From Blastopirellula retiformator (GTDB taxonomy: Bacteria > Planctomycetota > Planctomycetia > Pirellulales > Pirellulaceae): 64,000 bases of DNA. The notes under the pieces are model-generated. The model ran no database searches, was not told where the DNA came from, and saw only the letters and a list, made by a program, of their open reading frames with translations. Shown here piece by piece: positions 2,815 to 10,644 of the stretch; position 1 is the stretch's first letter, and each line of letters begins with the position of its first letter. The position numbers and the translations under genes are program-made. Location: positions 310,010 to 374,009 of the forward strand of contig NZ_SJPF01000006.1 of NCBI RefSeq assembly GCF_007859755.1, written 5' to 3'.

Positions 2815-3968
2815 GTTGCGGATTGGTCTCAAGCAGGAATCAGATACACTCCAACCGCGACCGCAAACGTAAAAATGGTGTTGCGGATTGGTCTCAAGCA
2901 GGAATCAGATACACTCCAGACCAACGCAAGCTTGATAATTGGCTAGTTGCGGATTGGTCTCAAGCAGGAATCAGATACACTCGAAACCGCCAGCTTTGCC
3001 ATTCCGTCGTGGTTGCGGATTGGTCTCAAGCAGGAATCAGATACACTCTAGAATCTTGCGGCTGACGAGCACCAACGGTTGCGGATTGGTCTCAAGCAGG
3101 AATCAGATACACTGCGCTTCGCGTGTTGGATCGTATCCGTAGTTGCGGATTGGTCTCAAGCAGGAATCAGATACACTACGATGGGTCAAACGGCCTATTC
3201 GTACATAGTTGCGGATTGGTCTCAAGCAGGAATCAGATACACTCGCAGGACCTGTGAATGCGTCAGGACCTGTGTTGCGGATTGGTCTCAAGCAGGAATC
3301 AGATACACTCGCAGGACCTGTGAATGCGTCAGGACCTGTGTTGCGGATTGGTCTCAAGCAGGAATCAGATACACTCCGACGACGCGAGCAACCACCAAAC
3401 GAGGCGTTGCGGATTGGTCTCAAGCAGGAATCAGATACACTGCCTTGATCGCTGACGACTTTTCGCGCAATGTTGCGGATTGGTCTCAAGCAGGAATCAG
3501 ATACACTCGTCCCGATAGTCATTGATTGCGGAAGTCAGTTGCGGATTGGTCTCAAGCAGGAATCAGATACACTCTGCAGCTGCGGCAATTCTCGGAGATC
3601 GGGTTGCGGATTGGTCTCAAGCAGGAATCAGATACACTTAATAGTACCGGAGCGATGCGACATTGGTAGTTGCGGATTGGTCTCAAGCAGGAATCAGATA
3701 CACTGTAGTCCGCCGCCGCCCGTAGCTTCTCTTCGTTGCGGATTGGTCTCAAGCAGGAATCAGATACACTACGATATGGGAGGTGGTCGCCTTCGTTTTT
3801 GTTGCGGATTGGTCTCAAGCAGGAATCAGATACACTCAGCGCAGCTTTCAATTTTGGATCCATTGCGTTGCGGATTGGTCTCAAGCAGGAATCAGATACA
3901 CTGGCGATACATTATCATGTTCGCCAGGAAGCGTTGCGGATTGGTCTCAAGCAGGAATCAGATACACT
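2815..3968 (+). CRISPR. Type II-C CRISPR array, 18 repeats and 17 spacers
   Basis: Eighteen identical 36-bp repeats begin GTTGCGGATTGGTC and end CAGATACACT, starting at 2815, 2880, 2946, 3012, 3078, 3142, 3208, 3274, 3340, 3406, 3472, 3538, 3603, 3669, 3735, 3801, 3867 and 3933. Spacers are 28-30 nt, mostly 30. Spacers 7 (3244-3273) and 8 (3310-3339) are identical. The crRNA sense is the + strand, because the anti-repeat at 8958 is complementary to this strand; the array is therefore convergent with the cas operon. Neither terminal repeat is degenerate. Each repeat contains TTGGTC, 16 nt, then TACACT at its 3' end, which looks like an internal promoter. Confidence 0.99.
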
Positions 3969-4016: not shown

Positions 4017-4346
4017 CTAAAAAAGTTCGAGCTGATTGGGCATTCCTGGGCGACATTCACGTAGTTTTCCCAGCATAAATTCCATTCGTTCGTATTGTTT
4101 GTCGGTAATGGAAAGGACCGCGACCTCTCCCTCCGGCGGCAGAAATGCGCGGAGTCTCCGCAAATGGACTTCGGCATTTTCTTTCGAGGCACAAGGCCTA
4201 AGATAGATCGAGTATTGCATTCGATAGAAGCCATCTTCAAGCAGTTTCTTACGAAATAAGGCATATTCCTTTCGCGCCTGCTTGGTATCGGTCGGCAAGT
4301 CGAACATCGCCATGATCCACATCGCTCGGTACCCGCTTATTCGCAT
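4017..4346 (-). CDS. cas2: CRISPR-associated endoribonuclease-like Cas2
   Basis: A 109-residue protein, MRISGYRAMWIMAMFDLPTD at its start, with the ferredoxin-like Cas2 fold expected from MAMFDLPT (strand 1 with the conserved Asp) and GFYRMQYSIYLRP. Start ATG at 4346 lies 10 nt inside the 3' end of cas1, so the two are translationally coupled; the longer open frame to 4430 only re-reads the cas1 end. With Cas1 it forms the spacer integration complex. It is the last cas gene, and its stop at 4017 is 48 bp from the array. Confidence 0.95.
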   Translation of the reverse strand: MRISGYRAMWIMAMFDLPTDTKQARKEYALFRKKLLEDGFYRMQYSIYLRPCASKENAEVHLRRLRAFLPPEGEVAVLSITDKQYERMEFMLGKLRECRPGMPNQLELF

Positions 4347-5227
4347 GGAACGGGAATCTCCAGCGCCGTCTGTTCCTTCCTCAAACAGCGCACCAAAGAG
4401 CCAAGCATCCGGTGCAACTGAACCATCCATGGCCCCTTCTCACCTCCCAAGGTGGTCTGCTGGGTGAGCAGTTTCAGCAACTCTCCCTTGCATTCCTGTG
4501 AAAGCGAATCGTAGCCTTGACGATGAAGTTCGCGAACCCGCTCATCCACCATCGGACGAAACGGCTCGATTAGATCGTCCGCCAAACAGAAAGGGTTGGC
4601 GCGATTGCGATGATGCAGGCCAATCGCTGGCGTTAGCCCTGCCGAAACGATCGCCCGGGCGATTGCTGCGCGCAAGACGGCATAACCATAGTTCAGTTGT
4701 GCGTTGAGCCCGCCTCGATCCGGGTCGCGCCGAAACTCAACCTCCGGATACCAGTATTGCCAATAGATTTTGGCGGCACGCGCTTCCACATTGGACGTAT
4801 CGCCTGACTTCACGTGCGAAATCAAAGCCTTGAGACGCTGCCGCCCGCCACAACTATCAGGTAGGACGGCGGCTTGAGCGTCAATCTTCGCACAGACGAT
4901 TTGTCGCCACAGTCGCTTACAAACCGGTTTCGGCGCAGCGATCTGCTCCTGCAATCGCCAAACGACCTCACTATGATCGGCGATCGGAAGCAAGATGGCC
5001 GCGGGCAAATGATTGACGCCGCAAATCACGACCGCCGCATTGGACTCGGCCAGATGACGAAGCGCTGCATGCGTGTAGGTCGTTCCAGGATGGTCGACCA
5101 CCACCATCCCGATTTCTTCACAGGGAATCGAGTGAACGATCTCCCCATCGCGTTTGAAAGTGAGTTGCTTGTGCCGCAGCCCTAAATGCACCGCCTCGCG
5201 AGAAATCTCGACCGTTCGTTTGATCAT
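4337..5227 (-). CDS. cas1: CRISPR integrase Cas1 (type II)
   Basis: A 296-residue Cas1, the normal size for type II. Visible family features are the N-terminal beta domain (MIKRTVEISREAVHLGLR), VVVDHPGTTYTH, the helix EARAAKIYWQYW with the first metal-binding Glu, GLHHRNRANPFCLADDLIEP with the catalytic His, and the acidic pair that follows. It catalyses protospacer integration with Cas2. A hairpin at 5233-5265 ends five bases upstream of the ATG. The gap to cas9 is 102 bp. No csn2 or cas4 is present, which makes the locus type II-C. Confidence 0.96.
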   Translation of the reverse strand: MIKRTVEISREAVHLGLRHKQLTFKRDGEIVHSIPCEEIGMVVVDHPGTTYTHAALRHLAESNAAVVICGVNHLPAAILLPIADHSEVVWRLQEQIAAPKPVCKRLWRQIVCAKIDAQAAVLPDSCGGRQRLKALISHVKSGDTSNVEARAAKIYWQYWYPEVEFRRDPDRGGLNAQLNYGYAVLRAAIARAIVSAGLTPAIGLHHRNRANPFCLADDLIEPFRPMVDERVRELHRQGYDSLSQECKGELLKLLTQQTTLGGEKGPWMVQLHRMLGSLVRCLRKEQTALEIPVPCE

Positions 5228-5329: not shown

Positions 5330-8300
5330 TTAATCGTTCGCGTCCCGAATTTGTCCCAGCGGCGTGGCGGTCACCTTGCGCGCCTCACGTTGCTGCAAAT
5401 TCTTGGGGGTCAAATAAAGATTGTCTTTGTTGATTTCCGCCACGGGCCGCGCATCGGTATGTCGTTTGTAGTAAACGCGTTTACTACGCTGATCGATCTT
5501 GCGAACAACGCACAAGATAATCTCGCCGTCGTCCTGCGTCATTTCAAACATCTCGCCGATCGACAACGACATCACAAATCGCCCCTCGGCGCCATCATCG
5601 CGAGCCACCATGTTACCGCAAGCTTCGGCGTCTTTCGCGCGGCGGGCGGCGTCCCACATCACCGTCACGCTTCCTTTCCAAACCTCTTCCCCTTTTTCTT
5701 CGACCGCAAAGTAAGAAATATGATGGTTGCTGCCGGGCTTGGTCAATTGCAAGCGGTCTCCTTCGCGCAGCGGCCTGAACGTTTGCCCTTCCTCAACCAT
5801 TCGTACTTTCTTGATCGGCGTTCCGGACGGCATTTGGGGAGCGTTCTCGCCGCTAAACGCGTCCTTGGGAATGGCTCCTGGTTTTGTAGGATCGATCTGC
5901 CGCTGGCGCAAATGATCTTGCAGGATGCGGCGAATCGTCACGTCCCGAACCTTCTCCAAGTGTTTCGTGTTCGTCAGATCGGTCACCGCCTTACGACGCA
6001 CGACGACTTGTGGATCTTCGACCCACCCCTTCGCCCACGGGCGGTCCGCTTGCGGCCTCGGCGTCTCCGCTTTCTGGGTAGCGCCGTAAATCGTCGCCTC
6101 GTGTAACGCGCCTTGAATCCGGCGTCGAACTCGATGCGAGACCTTCAGTCTCCCTAAAGCGTCCGCGACATCGCTGCGAAACTTCGGCCATGGGAATTCC
6201 ATGTCCCTGCCGCGCGCCTTGGCCAGCGCATGCAGCCGTTTCGCGTCAGTCAACCCGACGACCACCGCGTCAATTGCGTGATGTCGATGGTCCGCGCGAT
6301 TCTTCCGCTGCGATCCATCCGCGTTCAACAACGCATTGAGTCCCCATTGATGACGTAGTTCCGCCGTCATCGGCCCTTTCACCGTCGTGATCGGAACGCC
6401 AAGTCCTTTCAGATATTGGACCACCAAGCGACTAATATAGGTCGTATCGCGAAGTTGACGCTCAACGAATTCCGAAAGTTCGACATGCTCTTGCACAAAA
6501 CGCTGACGCTTTCCATAAGAAAGCCGTTGTGCCCTCAATAGCAGTTCGTCGAAACGACTCTTGTCGTGCCCCAGCCATTCCCACGGCGTCTTGTCTCCCT
6601 TTTCGTTATTTGCCGTGCGATGCGCAATTACCTTGTTCGCCATGGAGTCGTCCAGGCTGCGCCACCGAGGCAAGATGTGGTCGACGTCAACCTCGCCGGA
6701 GTCGAAAAGTTGCGCCTGACTGATCGCCTTTCCGGTGTAAATGCAAACGCCTCCCTGCTCCTGCCAAAGCAGATAGCGTTGGATATTGCGACGGGTTGAA
6801 CGAACCGGCGGCTTCAACTCTTGCAGCGTCTTCGCGATCGCGGCATTCTCGCGTTCTCGTTTCGCATTGGCGATTCGGATCTGCGTTCGTTCTTCGGCCG
6901 ACTTTTTCGCTTCCCGGGCCAATTCAACCCGGATCGTTCCCAGCCGACCGTGTACTCGAATCAACGCGTTCACTACCTTGCGAACCTCATACAACGCTTG
7001 CCGCACCAGCGGATTGGGCACTTCGGGCGGCTCCGGAAGTTTTTCGTATTGACGAACCTCGCGTTCATCCGGACGGAGATATCCCGCAGCGTGCAGCGCC
7101 GAGTCAGACGCGTCATTGCCCATCAGCGGCATGCCGGCTTCCAGATGAGGCAACAAGTTGCGGATCGCGACTCGGGAATAGTTCGAATATCCCGCGGGGA
7201 GGTGAAGGGCGATTGCGATAGCCGCTTCGTCGCTGGTGAGACCGCACTGGTTGGTCAGTTTTTCGATCGCAACATCTTCCCGATCTTCTTCCAGAACAAT
7301 TCGAATGATCTCATCTTTTACGTCGTCGGCGATATTATTCCATCGCTTCTTACCCAATCCGTTCTTGCCGTTGAACAGCGCGTCGGTTTCGTGTCCCTTC
7401 AGCTTCGAACGCTCACCTCGTTCGTAGTTAAACGCCACTGATTCCGGCAGCCCGAACTTTTTTCGAATTTGCGGAAAGGTGCGCTCCTTCGCTTCGCTAA
7501 GATAAGCGACGAGCTTCTTGTCAGCGTCGGCCCCAACCAGTTCGACGAAGGAATATTCCTTGCGATCGGCGGGCGAAAAGAGCCGCAAATTATTGACCTC
7601 TTGCAGAATGCGGAAACGTTGCGCCAGGCGGTCCGCTTTCGCGCAGCGTTTCTCTTTCGGCTCTAGATCGCAACGCCCGATCATGCTTTTCGGCCAATAC
7701 ATTTTCCGTTGAAAGAAGATGAGCCCGTGCAAACCGAATCGCTTAAGCAAGGTTTCTTCCTTGCGCCGCGCCTCGGGAATGAGCGGATAACTTTTTTTTC
7801 CTTCTGAGCCATACCGAAGCGCTTCGGTCAGAAGCTCCGCATGAAAGGAAGACTGTCTTTCCCAGATCTTGTCGAACTCGTCTTCGTACATTGCCCGCAA
7901 CGTATGGCGACCGCGCAAGCGCGGCAGTGCGTCCTCGTCGCTGACGCCAAGTTGATGAAGATATTGTCCTAAGGTTTCGCAGCCCCGTTCGGCAATCTCT
8001 GCCTGCAACTGGGTCATCGCGGCCAGGATCCCCTTCAGTTCGCTTCCGCCGCCGCGATCGGTGGTGCGATTGGAAAGGAAACCGCGCCGCTTGGCGAGAT
8101 GCAATAAGACTCGCCCGATCTCGTGCGGCGTCAGTTCCTCCAGCAGCGCCTTGGCCCGCAATTCGTAGGGATCGGTCGCTAGAATTTCGGTCTGCGCCTC
8201 TAGATCGGCAGGAAAAAGCCCTGCTTTGATCAATGCGTCCTTCAACTGTCGCATTCTTTGCGCTCTCCGGCGGACCTGACGTCGAATTCCCCGGGCAACG

Positions 8301-8458
8301 CGGCGACTTTGGGACTTCGATTTCTCGCCCCCTTGCTGATCACGATCGACCCCTTCGGGGAAGATGCGGACGCCGCAGTCGATGAGAGTGTCTTTGGAAA
8401 AAAGAGCCCAGCCCAAAGACGTTGGGCCAATGTCGAGACCTAGGACCAAATCTGACAT
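5330..8458 (-). CDS. cas9: Cas9 endonuclease, type II-C
   Basis: A 1042-residue Cas9. The ATG at 8458 follows CGAGGGGACT and opens MSDLVLGLDIGPTSLGW, so the 33-residue upstream extension is rejected. D9 is the RuvC-I Asp. An Arg-rich bridge helix follows (SRRVARGIRRQVRRRAQRM). E512 in RVELAREAKKS is the RuvC-II Glu. The HNH is VDVDHILPRW with H594 and N617/N618 in TANNEKGDKTP. RuvC-III is HRHHAIDAVVVG with H727 and D730. All nuclease residues are therefore present. The compact size and cas9-cas1-cas2 order fit II-C. It cuts DNA guided by crRNA:tracrRNA. Its promoter region is the predicted target of its own long tracrRNA. The PAM is unknown from sequence alone. Confidence 0.98.
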   Translation of the reverse strand: MSDLVLGLDIGPTSLGWALFSKDTLIDCGVRIFPEGVDRDQQGGEKSKSQSRRVARGIRRQVRRRAQRMRQLKDALIKAGLFPADLEAQTEILATDPYELRAKALLEELTPHEIGRVLLHLAKRRGFLSNRTTDRGGGSELKGILAAMTQLQAEIAERGCETLGQYLHQLGVSDEDALPRLRGRHTLRAMYEDEFDKIWERQSSFHAELLTEALRYGSEGKKSYPLIPEARRKEETLLKRFGLHGLIFFQRKMYWPKSMIGRCDLEPKEKRCAKADRLAQRFRILQEVNNLRLFSPADRKEYSFVELVGADADKKLVAYLSEAKERTFPQIRKKFGLPESVAFNYERGERSKLKGHETDALFNGKNGLGKKRWNNIADDVKDEIIRIVLEEDREDVAIEKLTNQCGLTSDEAAIAIALHLPAGYSNYSRVAIRNLLPHLEAGMPLMGNDASDSALHAAGYLRPDEREVRQYEKLPEPPEVPNPLVRQALYEVRKVVNALIRVHGRLGTIRVELAREAKKSAEERTQIRIANAKRERENAAIAKTLQELKPPVRSTRRNIQRYLLWQEQGGVCIYTGKAISQAQLFDSGEVDVDHILPRWRSLDDSMANKVIAHRTANNEKGDKTPWEWLGHDKSRFDELLLRAQRLSYGKRQRFVQEHVELSEFVERQLRDTTYISRLVVQYLKGLGVPITTVKGPMTAELRHQWGLNALLNADGSQRKNRADHRHHAIDAVVVGLTDAKRLHALAKARGRDMEFPWPKFRSDVADALGRLKVSHRVRRRIQGALHEATIYGATQKAETPRPQADRPWAKGWVEDPQVVVRRKAVTDLTNTKHLEKVRDVTIRRILQDHLRQRQIDPTKPGAIPKDAFSGENAPQMPSGTPIKKVRMVEEGQTFRPLREGDRLQLTKPGSNHHISYFAVEEKGEEVWKGSVTVMWDAARRAKDAEACGNMVARDDGAEGRFVMSLSIGEMFEMTQDDGEIILCVVRKIDQRSKRVYYKRHTDARPVAEINKDNLYLTPKNLQQREARKVTATPLGQIRDAND

Positions 8459-8663
8459 AGTCCCCTCGGTGTTTGCTGTGGAAAAGTAAAACGAGTACAC
8501 TAGCCCTCGTGCTGCGTCACACGACAGATCTCGGCAATCCATCCGGGAGAGATGCACCCCTCCCTTCGAGCCAGCGTACTCTCACATATCAGCCTAGGAC
8601 CAGGAACTGTTTCGCAAATACAGTCGGCCGAGCCAGTTCTCAATGCGTTTCAAGATTGGCGAC

Positions 8664-8689
8664 CGTCACAGAGGTGCAACTCTGTGACG
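8664..8689. other. Perfect 10-bp hairpin in the predicted cas9 leader
   Basis: CGTCACAGAG (8664-8673) and CTCTGTGACG (8680-8689) form a perfect stem with a 6-nt loop. On the + strand it is followed by the T-rich tail TTTCCTTTCTTTT, so it could terminate rightward transcription. On the - strand it lies in the roughly 310-nt untranslated leader of cas9. Either an antisense terminator or a leader structure is possible. Confidence 0.45.
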
Positions 8690-8753
8690 TTTCCTTTCTT
8701 TTGGCCTGATAGAGATAAATGTATCGAAAAGTCCGGCCATGTCAACCAGTATC

Positions 8754-8781
8754 TTGAAAGCCACCGATGGTTAATTATAAT
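8754..8781 (+). promoter_or_regulatory. Promoter for long tracrRNA (tracr-L)
   Basis: TTGAAA (8754-8759), 16 nt, then a perfect TATAAT (8776-8781). This is the best sigma-70-type match around the CRISPR locus and points rightward toward the tracrRNA, giving a predicted start near 8788. Its -10 shares the octamer ATTATAAT with the leftward cas9 promoter. Confidence 0.65.
8755..8766 (+). promoter_or_regulatory. Predicted Cas9:tracr-L self-target in the cas promoter
   Basis: TGAAAGCCACCG on this strand is the exact complement of the 12 nt CGGTGGCTTTCA (8844-8855) that lie directly 5' of the degenerate repeat. The protospacer is thus on the - strand, followed 3' by AGATACTG as the candidate PAM region. 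It covers the -35 of the long tracrRNA promoter and the predicted first bases of the cas9 mRNA. Twelve PAM-proximal matches would suit binding without cleavage. Confidence 0.65.
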
Positions 8782-8801
8782 ACAACTAGCCCCGATGACA
8801 C
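8774..8801 (-). promoter_or_regulatory. Candidate cas9 operon promoter
   Basis: Read leftward: GTGTCA (8801-8796), 16 nt, TATAAT (8779-8774), predicted start near 8767. The -10 is perfect and the -35 matches TTGACA at four of six positions. The mRNA leader to the cas9 ATG at 8458 would be about 310 nt. A nearer promoter is not obvious. Confidence 0.5.
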
Positions 8802-8855
8802 TGGGGAGAATGAAAGTTCCGGTAGTTACTACAACAATGACCACGGTGGCTTTCA

Positions 8856-8880
8856 GTTGCGAATTGGTCCAAGGAGCGAG
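8856..8880 (+). repeat. Degenerate CRISPR repeat inside the tracrRNA leader
   Basis: GTTGCGAATTGGTC (8856-8869) differs from the array repeat at one base. After one deleted T, CAAGGAGCGA aligns with CAAGCAGGAA. Similarity fades after about 8880. It is same-sense to the array repeats and complementary to the downstream anti-repeat. Confidence 0.8.
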
Positions 8881-8921
8881 ATTTTCAGCTTAGGGCACGT
8901 CAGCCCCTAAAATTTGGAGGG

Positions 8922-8950
8922 TTGACGACCCACCGTTGGGCAGGTACGCT
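8922..8950 (+). promoter_or_regulatory. Promoter of short tracrRNA
   Basis: TTGACG (8922-8927), 17 nt, TACGCT (8945-8950). The start predicted seven bases downstream (about 8957) falls exactly at the first base of the anti-repeat, which supports the assignment even though the -10 is weak. Confidence 0.6.
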
Positions 8951-8956
8951 GAACAG

Positions 8957-9066
8957 CAGTGTATCTGATTTCTGCTTGCGACTCTTTTCGTAACAAGAAT
9001 GAAAAATTCGCAGGCACTGCTCTACGGAGCAACCAGCCGTCATGTCACGTACAGGGCGGCTTTTTT
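8957..9066 (+). ncRNA. tracrRNA (short form)
   Basis: The anti-repeat AGTGTATCTGATTTCTGC and onward (8958-8984) is complementary to the 3' part of the array repeat. It is interrupted by a small hairpin TTTTC/GAAAA (8985-8989 with 9001-9005), and resumes with AATTCGCA (9005-9012), which pairs with the repeat's 5' TGCGGATT. A nexus-like hairpin TGCTC-TACG-GAGCA follows (9018-9031). The RNA ends in an intrinsic terminator, AGCCG/CGGCT followed by six T (9035-9066). All parts a Cas9 tracrRNA needs are present in order. It pairs with crRNA repeats and docks the crRNA into Cas9. Confidence 0.88.
9035..9066 (+). terminator. tracrRNA intrinsic terminator
   Basis: AGCCG (9035-9039) pairs with CGGCT (9057-9061), an inner stem is possible, and the T-run extends to 9066. 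It doubles as the 3' hairpin of the tracrRNA. Confidence 0.8.
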
Positions 9067-9969
9067 CGTTTCTTGCCGGTCGCTCTGGCGGCATCTTCAC
9101 CCTCCCAAATCGGTTTGCTCAATTGCTCGATATTTGGGAAAATCTGGGGTTCCGATTTTTCTCACTGAGGTCGAGTTGCCGCGGGCGAAATGGCTGGGCG
9201 GTTGCGATCTCGGTGTGCGCTTGTCTTGGGCATGTTGGCAGGAGGGTCGGGCTGGGAAAAAAATGACGCGATTGAGTCCACTCGACTTTCGAAAAAGGGG
9301 AAACGGTCCGGTCCGGCGGTCCGCTTGCTGATGGCGAGCAGCGATCGCCGCTGCAGCCGAGGAAGACACTGGCTATGGCCAGTGGCACCCAGGAGGAGAC
9401 GCTTGCCGTTCGAAAAAAAGCGAAACGGTCCGGTCCAGTTGATCGGTGGTCGTGGATGGGTGAAGGCGGGAAAAAAAGGAGTCGGGTGAGTCCACTTGGT
9501 GTGCGAAAAAAAGGGAATCGTCCGGTCCGGTCGCGCCCGGTTTGGCGGAAGGTGATGTGCAGGCTCGGGTTAGGTCGCCCCGGTGGCGCTGAAGAAAAAA
9601 AGCTGCGGCCGAGTCCACTCGGCGTGAAAAAACGAAATGGTCCGGTCCGGTGGTCCAGGTTGTTAACGGAGGGCGAAGACATGCTTCAATCGCGCGTGCG
9701 ACGCGATAAGAGCATGGCGCCAGGTTAAGAAAAAGTTGGAACATGGTCCGGTCCGGTCCGCTTTCCGCTTTTAATCATTCGCTCATTCGGGTTTGATTCG
9801 TCATTCTGGTTTCGGCATTCGTCATTTACATTGCGGCCGCATTCCCTCGGCTTGCGCACTCGGGTTCGTGTTTTTGGGAATTTCAATATTGGGTTCGAAA
9901 TCAAGACAGCCGCCGGGACTTTCGTCGCCGACGGCTGGGAGAGGTTGATTGGGCTGGCAGCCGTGGGGG
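9067..9969. other. Gene-free region holding a degenerate repeat cluster
   Basis: No gene is supported in these 900 bp. The centre (about 9265-9765) is a repeat cluster described separately; 9766-9969 shows nothing recognisable. Open frames on both strands here are translations of the repeats and lack starts with a ribosome binding site. Confidence 0.6.
9265..9765. repeat. Cluster of five degenerate GGTCCGGTCCGG repeats
   Basis: The GGTCCGGTCC core, or a one-base variant of it, recurs at about 9305, 9427, 9519, 9639 and 9744, spaced 93-122 bp. In four units it follows an A-rich run (GAAAAA.. or CGAAAAAAAG), and in three of these the run is preceded by GAGTCCACT. Between the units the sequence is unrelated. 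The spacing is not a multiple of three, so the shared peptide pattern seen in one frame is a by-product. Confidence 0.75.
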
Positions 9970-10644
9970 CTACTTGGTTTCGGTCGGGGCTTCTTCTTTG
10001 ACCGTCGTTTCGTTGGTCAGGACGGCGGGGGTTTCCTGCTTTTCCTCTTCCGGCTGGTCGTCGGCCGGGGCGGCGGGCGACTTTTCGGTGAGGGCGGTCA
10101 TCAGCGAGGCCTTGAGTTTCGGCTCGAGCTTCGCTTCGACCTGGCCGGCGATTTTGTCGGTCTGCGTCTTGATTTGGTTGGCGACGTCATCCAGCTTGGC
10201 GTTGGCCTGCTTTTTGAGGTCGGCGACGGCGACGTCGAACTGTTTGTTCAGCTTGTCGGACTGGGCGGCGATTTTGGCTTCGGCGTCGGTGCGCAGCTTG
10301 GCGATTTCGGCGACCGTTTCCTGCTGCAGCTTTTTCGCTTCGGCGGCGAGCATCGCTTTGGCCGACTTGCGCATGTCGGCGACGGCCGCTTGCAGTTCGG
10401 CCTTCAGCGCGGCGGCTTCGGCCTGGATCTGCTCGCTCGATTCGGCAGACAGCTGAGCGGCGTTTTCGGCCTTGGCGGCGGCGACTTGTTGTTCGATTTG
10501 ACCATTCATTTCCCAGCGGAGCTGCGCGGCGACTTCGGCTTTGATCCGCTCGCGGCGACGGCCGAAGATGCCTGCCTGAACGTCGGCGACGATCACGACC
10601 GAAAGAGCGACGACCAGCGGCAGAACGATTCGTTTGGCGTTCAT
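9970..10644 (-). CDS. Secreted coiled-coil protein of unknown function
   Basis: A 224-residue protein. The ATG at 10644 is chosen because AAGGAAA precedes it and it opens a signal peptide (MNAKRIVLPLVVALSVVIVADVQA); the longer frame to 10722 has no such support. After GIFGRRRERIK the protein is almost wholly Ala/Lys/Glu/Gln-rich helix (about residues 30-180), with heptad-like repeats such as AAALKAELQAAVADMRKSAK, predicting a long periplasmic coiled coil. The tail is acidic and Pro-rich. No family is recognised. It could be a structural or spacer protein of the envelope. Confidence 0.75.
   Translation of the reverse strand: MNAKRIVLPLVVALSVVIVADVQAGIFGRRRERIKAEVAAQLRWEMNGQIEQQVAAAKAENAAQLSAESSEQIQAEAAALKAELQAAVADMRKSAKAMLAAEAKKLQQETVAEIAKLRTDAEAKIAAQSDKLNKQFDVAVADLKKQANAKLDDVANQIKTQTDKIAGQVEAKLEPKLKASLMTALTEKSPAAPADDQPEEEKQETPAVLTNETTVKEEAPTETK

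Follow-up and report, generated by a model that had tools for sequence, protein, structure and literature searches.

Cas9 of Blastopirellula retiformator probably represses its own gene, as well as the RNA that guides it, by means of a natural single guide that does not lead to cutting, in a manner analogous to that of the tracr-L RNA of Streptococcus pyogenes. As far as can be judged from the DNA alone, the evidence for a natural guide aimed at a promoter is strong; it is likely, though not demonstrated, that the guide RNA turns Cas9 into an active repressor, and transcription of the long RNA, its loading onto Cas9, binding, non-cleavage and repression are all inferred, no RNA or repression data being available. 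Equivalent guides, which differ in sequence and each match their own locus, are found in certain further members of the phylum.

Organization of the presumed type II-C locus

The 64,000-nt stretch of contig NZ_SJPF01000006.1 that was analysed, hereafter the window, was found to contain cas9, cas1, cas2, an array and a tracrRNA gene (Table 1), a gene set that points to type II-C. A leftward cas9 is followed by a 500-bp gap and then by the rightward tracrRNA gene, and the array, cas2 and cas1 are located on the far side of cas9. Neither csn2 nor cas4 was noticed among the neighbouring frames, for which only the list of open reading frames was consulted, without a csn2 profile, and an Rfam scan around the locus returned a single sub-threshold match.

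Table 1. Coordinates of the features of the Blastopirellula retiformator locus within the window.
Feature	Position	Strand	Remarks
CRISPR array	2815-3968	+	18 repeats GTTGCGGATTGGTCTCAAGCAGGAATCAGATACACT, 17 spacers
cas2	4017-4430	-	TIGR01573; limits as in the ORF list, translation may begin further inside
cas1	4337-5227	-	TIGR03639, type II cas1
cas9	5330-8458	-	TIGR01865; HNH and RuvC-III domains matched
Hairpin and T-rich tract	8664-8689	+	terminator-like reading rightward; between cas9 and target
Likely cas9 promoter, TTGACA-16-TACATT	8718-8745	-	consensus scan; inferred
PAM-side flank of self-target, AGATAC	8749-8754	-	PAM inferred only
Promoter-like site of long RNA, TTGAAA-16-TATAAT	8754-8781	+	11/12; -35 overlaps target
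Self-target, protospacer CGGTGGCTTTCA	8755-8766	- (protospacer strand)	exact match to guide
12-nt guide CGGTGGCTTTCA	8844-8855	+	adjoins repeat-like segment
Degenerate repeat	8856-8878	+	pairing possible of 8856-8863 with 8987-8994, and of 8867-8873 with 8975-8982
Promoter-like site of short tracrRNA, TTGACG-17-TACGCT	8922-8950	+	weak -10
tracrRNA (anti-repeat to 8994, nexus, terminator)	8958-9067	+	model R1

The hairpin between cas9 and the target resembles a rightward terminator, yet there is no obvious transcript for it to terminate; hairpins of other sequence were seen by eye at a like place in three related loci (L104, L123 and L124, see below). On the 3' side of the tracrRNA gene, at 9258-9760, blocks of GGTCCGGTCCGG and GAGTCCACTYGG are irregularly repeated beside A-runs.

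A 12-nt guide complementary to a promoter-like region

The original prediction held that a 12-nt segment adjoining a degenerate repeat is exactly complementary to a site further upstream, and this was borne out when the sequence was checked: CGGTGGCTTTCA at 8844-8855 reads exactly as 8755-8766 does on the opposite strand, and the repeat that begins at 8856 shows a single mismatch to the array repeat over its first 11 nt. The pair represents the sole non-overlapping inverted 12-nt match within 8460-9075. Following dinucleotide-preserving shuffling of 8461-8843, the 12-mer was matched, on either strand, in one of 20,000 shuffles, and a second shuffle test of the guide match gave 0/3,000. Matches of 10 nt were observed at four of 376 other positions of the gap, three of which constitute the target side of the same pair, and the fourth of which belongs to the hairpin at 8664-8689. 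In the 6.2-Mb assembly the 12-mer is present in three copies (0.74 expected at equal base use), i.e., guide, target and one copy on contig 3; the last is located near a frame named transposase-like by eye, and was taken as chance.

The target had also been placed in overlapping divergent promoters. A consensus scan of 8460-9100 returned three promoter-like sites, versus 0.4 expected, and these agree with that placement to the extent that promoter-like sites point both towards cas9 and rightward, without transcripts to confirm them. The rightward site scores highest, its -35 being partly covered by the target, and the other two are leftward and each score 10/12: TTGACA-16-TACATT, which begins 9 nt beyond the target, and GTGTCA-16-TATAAT at 8801-8774. 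That 8755-8766 belongs to a cas9 promoter is thus inferred from consensus only. Both the guide RNA and cas9 may be repressed, since the target shares nucleotides with the -35 of the former's promoter-like site and sits just upstream of the likely -35 of the latter. A weaker site, TTGACG-17-TACGCT, lies 5' of the anti-repeat, and a TTGAC-type site was seen at a like place before the tracrRNA in most relatives inspected (by eye, uncounted). The occurrence of promoter-like sites both upstream and close to the anti-repeat makes it likely that a long and a short tracrRNA are produced, as in S. pyogenes, there being no transcript data.

Orphan repeats in planctomycete loci

Matches to a tracrRNA covariance model were obtained in 37 of 396 genomes of the order, 32 of 397 of the class and 17 of 392 of the phylum (the samples overlap; E <= 1e-4 for the phylum). 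Sixty-five oriented loci from 63 genomes were gathered, made up of 56 loci with one model match each, some of them weak, and nine others, with G251 and G903 contributing two apiece. A repeat was counted as an orphan if it contained GTTGCGGATTG with at most one mismatch, on the tracrRNA strand and outside the main array, and if it remained repeat-like past 11 nt as judged by eye; three sites that passed over the 11 nt, in L146 (9348), in L173 (832) and, on the opposite strand, in L147, failed the remaining criteria and were excluded. The start of cas9 was not located by script in 26 of the first 56 loci, in which case 1600 nt upstream were scanned; less than 1600 nt was available upstream in L105, L128 and L130, the cas9-side limits of L104, L123, L124, L132, L155 and L182 were set by hand, and L153, where an array lies beside a broken cas9, was counted as array.

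An orphan repeat 5' of the tracrRNA was found in nine of the 65 loci (the window, L103, L104, L114, L123, L124, L182, L155 and L132) and was not counted in the other 56. Four further phylum matches (G928, G981, G1086 and G1142), which were subjected to the orphan-repeat scan only, yielded none, and a search of the families of G341, G282 and G251 for further orphan loci produced zero new tracrRNA genomes. The two nearest relatives, B. marina and G037, whose Cas9 proteins are 77-80% identical, possess the same tracrRNA, a cas9-tracrRNA gap of 103-121 nt and no such element, indicating that the device is not universal.

Comparison of guide and target across relatives, which had been suggested as a check on the window, proved favourable. 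Seven of the nine orphans match their own gap with a repeat-anchored score of at least 9, compared with four of the 207 guides taken from ordinary arrays (p = 2.9e-9, Fisher test); the corresponding figures without the window were six of eight (p = 4e-8), and five of seven (p = 7e-7) when L123 and L124 were also counted once. The threshold of 9 was chosen after the exact matches were known, and the 207 control guides represent at most the first 25 repeats per locus in ten selected loci. Exact matches of at least 10 nt were present for 6/9 orphans versus 2/364 array guides, the latter being every qualifying array repeat in 19 loci. The number of other positions in a locus's own gap that reach a 10-nt match ranged from 0 of 273 (L155) to 50 of 838 (L114), and the L114 gap contains a 26-nt inverted repeat elsewhere. 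For L155 the match is only 7 nt long (P 0.03-0.13), and L132 showed no convincing guide match to its own gap and no Cas9 in the stretch examined. At the sequence level, the contrast of 7/9 with 4/207, together with a second fused locus (L182), supports the tracr-L-like autoregulation that had been proposed for the window.

In L132 (G423), one of the two loci without a counted match, at about 10111-10215 of the oriented strand, a full repeat is fused straight to the 3' half of a tracrRNA that lacks the anti-repeat, a second degenerate tracrRNA adjoins this fusion, and a long inverted repeat is located upstream.

Fused and unfused guides and their targets

Different clades have unrelated guide sequences but a conserved repeat. 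The inverted exact matches measure 12 nt in the window, 13 nt in L103, 10 nt in L114 and 12 nt in L182, and they end precisely at the start of the repeat in the window, L103 and L182, and extend 1 nt into it in L114. Direct matches were found in L104 (20 nt) and L124 (17 nt), stopping 2-3 nt short of the repeat; in both, the match resumes after a 1-nt slip (with one mismatch in L124), and L123 displays a direct match of the same kind with one internal mismatch. This 1-nt offset near the PAM end of L104, L123 and L124 could weaken Cas9 binding. The flanks of L123 and L124 look homologous, and the five substitutions between their guide cores recur in the targets, according to an alignment made by eye.

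The locus L182, from genome G1132 of the same phylum yet outside the class of the window, is likewise fused, with a 12-nt guide, a repeat-like segment and a tracrRNA anti-repeat 103 nt downstream; the repeat-like segment is of its own array type, and a short-form promoter-like site of its own is present. A cas9-ward promoter-like site brackets the target in L103 (TTGACG-18-TATTTT), L114 (TTGACA-17-TATTTT) and L182 (TTGACA-16-TAAAAT), with its -35 on one side and its -10 on the other; in L114 and L182 the target additionally overlaps the -35 of a rightward site. For the direct cases, the overlapping promoter-like sites are weak (8/12) or, in L124, absent. In L182 the targeted promoter is separated from cas9 by a tRNA gene, so that this promoter may serve the tRNA and does not necessarily drive cas9. 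The gene in question (L182:9494-9583, cas9 strand) is 90 nt long, was called as tRNA-Trp (CCA) and has an apparent long variable arm; L155 possesses a tRNA-like stretch at a like place, which was not called by ARAGORN.

Five of the matched loci (L103, L104, L114, L123 and L124) are unfused, i.e., a stand-alone mini-array is found beside HicB-like genes, and in all five a HicB-like gene follows on the 3' side of the mini-array in the same direction. A HicB-like motif within 1500 nt upstream of the tracrRNA was detected in eight of the 65 loci, these being the five mini-array loci and three that have two tracrRNA copies. A HicA-like frame is also present in four of these mini-array loci, all except L104 (two recognised by motif, two by eye), and Pfam searches placed the L123 frame above the cut-off for HicA_toxin and the L104 frame just below that for HicB_lk_antitox. 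For neither the window nor L182 does the ORF list include a frame of 45 codons or longer in the interval from guide to tracrRNA, which does not exclude a small toxic RNA; inspection of 8788-8843 by eye for a CreT-like toxic mini-RNA revealed no feature shared with L103, L114 or L182.

Three minor observations concern these loci. In L106, L105 and L113 a HicB-like gene is situated between two tracrRNA copies, where L103 and L104 have their mini-array. The mini-arrays of L103 and L104 end in a common truncated second repeat, GTTGCGGATTGGTTACACT, despite their unrelated guides. Lastly, the final 12 nt of array spacer 17 of 34 in L103 match that locus's own HicB-like gene, which could be chance among 364 guides.

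The arrangement of these genes raises the possibility that the main target is the rightward promoter. In the manner of CreA in CreTA/CrePA, Cas9 with the guide would then silence the RNA that carries this guide and, in relatives of the unfused kind, the HicB/HicA-like genes as well, any effect on cas9 being incidental or absent. Such a role would fit the rightward orientation of the best promoter-like site of the window (11/12), whose -35 is covered by the target, the constant position of the HicB-like gene in 5/5 matched unfused loci, and the fact that the first gene after the cas9-ward promoter of L182 is a tRNA. We nevertheless consider it rather unlikely: the cas9-ward site over the target scores better in L103 and L182 and equally in L114, and neither fused locus has a listed frame of at least 45 codons between guide and tracrRNA.

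Pairing of the orphan repeat with the tracrRNA

Repression of cas9 by Cas9 carrying a natural single guide remains the preferred reading, our confidence in which is slightly reduced by the tRNA in L182 and by the weak pairing over 36 nt reported here. When the array repeat and the tracrRNA were co-folded, nucleotides 1-8 of the repeat paired with TTCGTAAC at 8987-8994, and pairing with the 5' end of the repeat would explain the conservation of the TTCGTAAC motif. According to the original prediction, a G to A change at 8862 perfects the pairing of the degenerate repeat with AATTCGCA at 9005-9012. The change is real and is indeed a strengthening one, giving A:U in place of G:U, though in the stem with 8987-8994, and the partner that had been assigned to it is probably wrong. 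Pairing of 8857-8864 with 9005-9012 as the main stem was rejected, since co-folding of the array repeat and tracrRNA pairs these elsewhere. A matching change in the stem was observed in L182 (repeat GTCGCG, tracrRNA CGCGAC).

The orphan repeat of the window retains the lower stem and an upper stem with one bulge, and pairing of its 3' half is lost. Across the full 36 nt its pairing to the tracrRNA amounts to -4.2 kcal/mol versus -32.7 kcal/mol for the array repeat, and over the first 22 nt to -7.8 versus -9.8 kcal/mol. The single-guide fold, in which both stems are formable, was predicted at -86.9 kcal/mol versus -91.8 kcal/mol for the unconstrained minimum, i.e., about 5 kcal/mol above it. 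The orphan repeat of L182 pairs with its tracrRNA nearly as the array repeat does (-29.0 versus -31.0 kcal/mol), and the predicted minimum fold contains the lower stem.

A degenerate 3' half, weak pairing over 36 nt and a minimum fold other than the single guide are also what a decayed remnant of an old mini-array might display, its match, whether once functional or a leftover, now being idle; the nearest relatives, moreover, lost or never had the element, and type II-C arrays often contain additional, mutated repeats, according to the accessible portion of PMC12080349. Little credence can be given to such decay in view of the perfect 12-nt match, the intact 5' half of the repeat, in which the one change strengthens pairing, and the near-consensus promoter-like site of the long RNA. 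A DNA-binding protein unrelated to Cas9 might instead use both the inverted and the direct repeats as its operators, a role to which the three direct cases with their 1-nt offset would be equally suited. This is highly improbable, as the inverted matches stop where the CRISPR repeat begins, or in L114 one nucleotide into it, and the sequences are unrelated between clades that conserve this repeat.

Distribution of orphan guides on the Cas9 tree

A tree was constructed from 42 of the 44 gathered Cas9 sequences, without L146 and L113. The window groups with G037 and B. marina, this trio falling in a supported clade with L104, L123, L124 and L109, while L103 and L114 form a second clade with L106, and L182 belongs to a third. 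The 'orphan' label (eight rows, including L155) requires six changes on this tree, and a number as low was obtained in 57 of 500 shuffles, meaning that clustering is not clear; a label scattered in this way implies that the device is either old and often lost, or repeatedly gained. In the window, L104, L123 and L124 alike, the cas9 leader is long and includes a hairpin ahead of the target, the hairpin sequences differing (by eye), from which we infer that inheritance, followed by fusion in the lineage of the window, is favoured.

It may be proposed, if only tentatively and with less than even confidence, that planctomycete type II-C systems have long and repeatedly relied on promoter-aimed orphan guides for self-regulation. 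In this view the mini-array form would also govern hicBA, such that disabling Cas9 could release it, fusion with the tracrRNA would have taken place at least twice, and cutting would be avoided by a short match or a one-base slip. HicBA would have its own protein antitoxin.

Proposed mode of action and relation to known systems

Self-repression by Cas9 in the window would proceed as follows. Two tracrRNAs would be made from the locus, the short one, from 8922-8950, serving immunity. The long RNA, starting near 8788, would carry the 12-nt guide towards its 5' end, followed by the repeat-like segment and the whole tracrRNA at the 3' side, and would fold into a natural single guide. Cas9 in complex with this RNA would bind 8755-8766 within the divergent promoter region of cas9 and the long RNA, and, the 12-nt match presumably being too short for cleavage, the bound protein would block RNA polymerase, thereby keeping both Cas9 and its own regulatory guide low. 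Derepression would ensue when crRNAs occupy Cas9, or when an inhibitor disables it.

As described in the accessible portions of PMC8616872, PMC11417352 and PMC12216829, tracr-L of S. pyogenes (type II-A) is a natural single guide with an 11-nt guide that targets the cas promoter region. The window resembles it in a predicted long tracrRNA from an upstream promoter alongside a short form (recognised here as promoter-like sites only), and in a short 5' guide, 12 nt instead of 11 nt in length, that matches the presumed cas promoter region. It differs in its type II-C gene set, and is hence not filed in the II-A tracr-L family; furthermore, its guide adjoins what can still be recognised as a degenerate array repeat, its promoter-like sites are divergent and overlapping, and its relatives possess unfused mini-array forms. 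The available part of PMC8616872 (2021) states that tracr-L is absent from other subtypes; 'II-C' is not mentioned in that of PMC11417352, nor 'type II-C' in those of PMC8616872 and PMC12216829. A literature search for self-repression by a type II-C natural single guide found none, most subscription papers lying outside its scope.

CreR RNAs are crRNA-like autoregulators of type I and type V-A systems (PMC12737573, in the part available). They share with the present case a guide RNA encoded outside the array that matches its own cas promoter, and L103, L104, L114, L123 and L124 resemble CreR, albeit by sequence match only; the difference is that the effector here, Cas9, needs a tracrRNA, and that guide and tracrRNA would form one transcription unit in the window and L182. 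The same source, as far as accessible, gives CreTA for type I-B and a CrePA toxin with a KilA-N domain. The toxin-antitoxin-like genes 3' of the orphan guide in the five unfused relatives recall these systems, whereas the window has no such gene under the targeted promoter. The scaRNAs of Francisella novicida and of the type II-C system of Neisseria meningitidis are, similarly, small RNAs from outside the array that act with Cas9, but target other genes; in the available text of PMC13431127 the Neisseria scaRNA acts post-transcriptionally and is not described as repressing cas9. Extraneous II-C crRNAs are treated as something to suppress in the portion of PMC12080349 that could be consulted.

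Within the literature surveyed, some of it available only in part, single-guide Cas9 self-repression has so far been described for type II-A only. If the self-repression proposed here is true, the same solution to self-control has been met repeatedly by different Cas9 systems, in this instance with II-C anatomy, two forms and one co-changing guide-target pair, and naturally evolved single-guide RNAs would be at hand for a new Cas9 group.

Target flanks and PAM

Such guides would also supply natural targets from which a PAM may be inferred. A literature search on the PAM of Blastopirellula Cas9 found nothing, no protospacers of the window array were found in phages, and viral contigs searched with four spacer patterns (one from the window, three from L156) contained no protospacers. 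The target flanks within the Cas9 clade of the window read AGATAC, GAATAC, GGATAC and GAGGAC, loosely NRRKAC (by eye, a 1-nt slip being allowed), and flanks differ between clades. Of note, two adjacent spacers of the window array, at 3244-3273 and 3310-3339, are identical (CGCAGGACCTGTGAATGCGTCAGGACCTGT).
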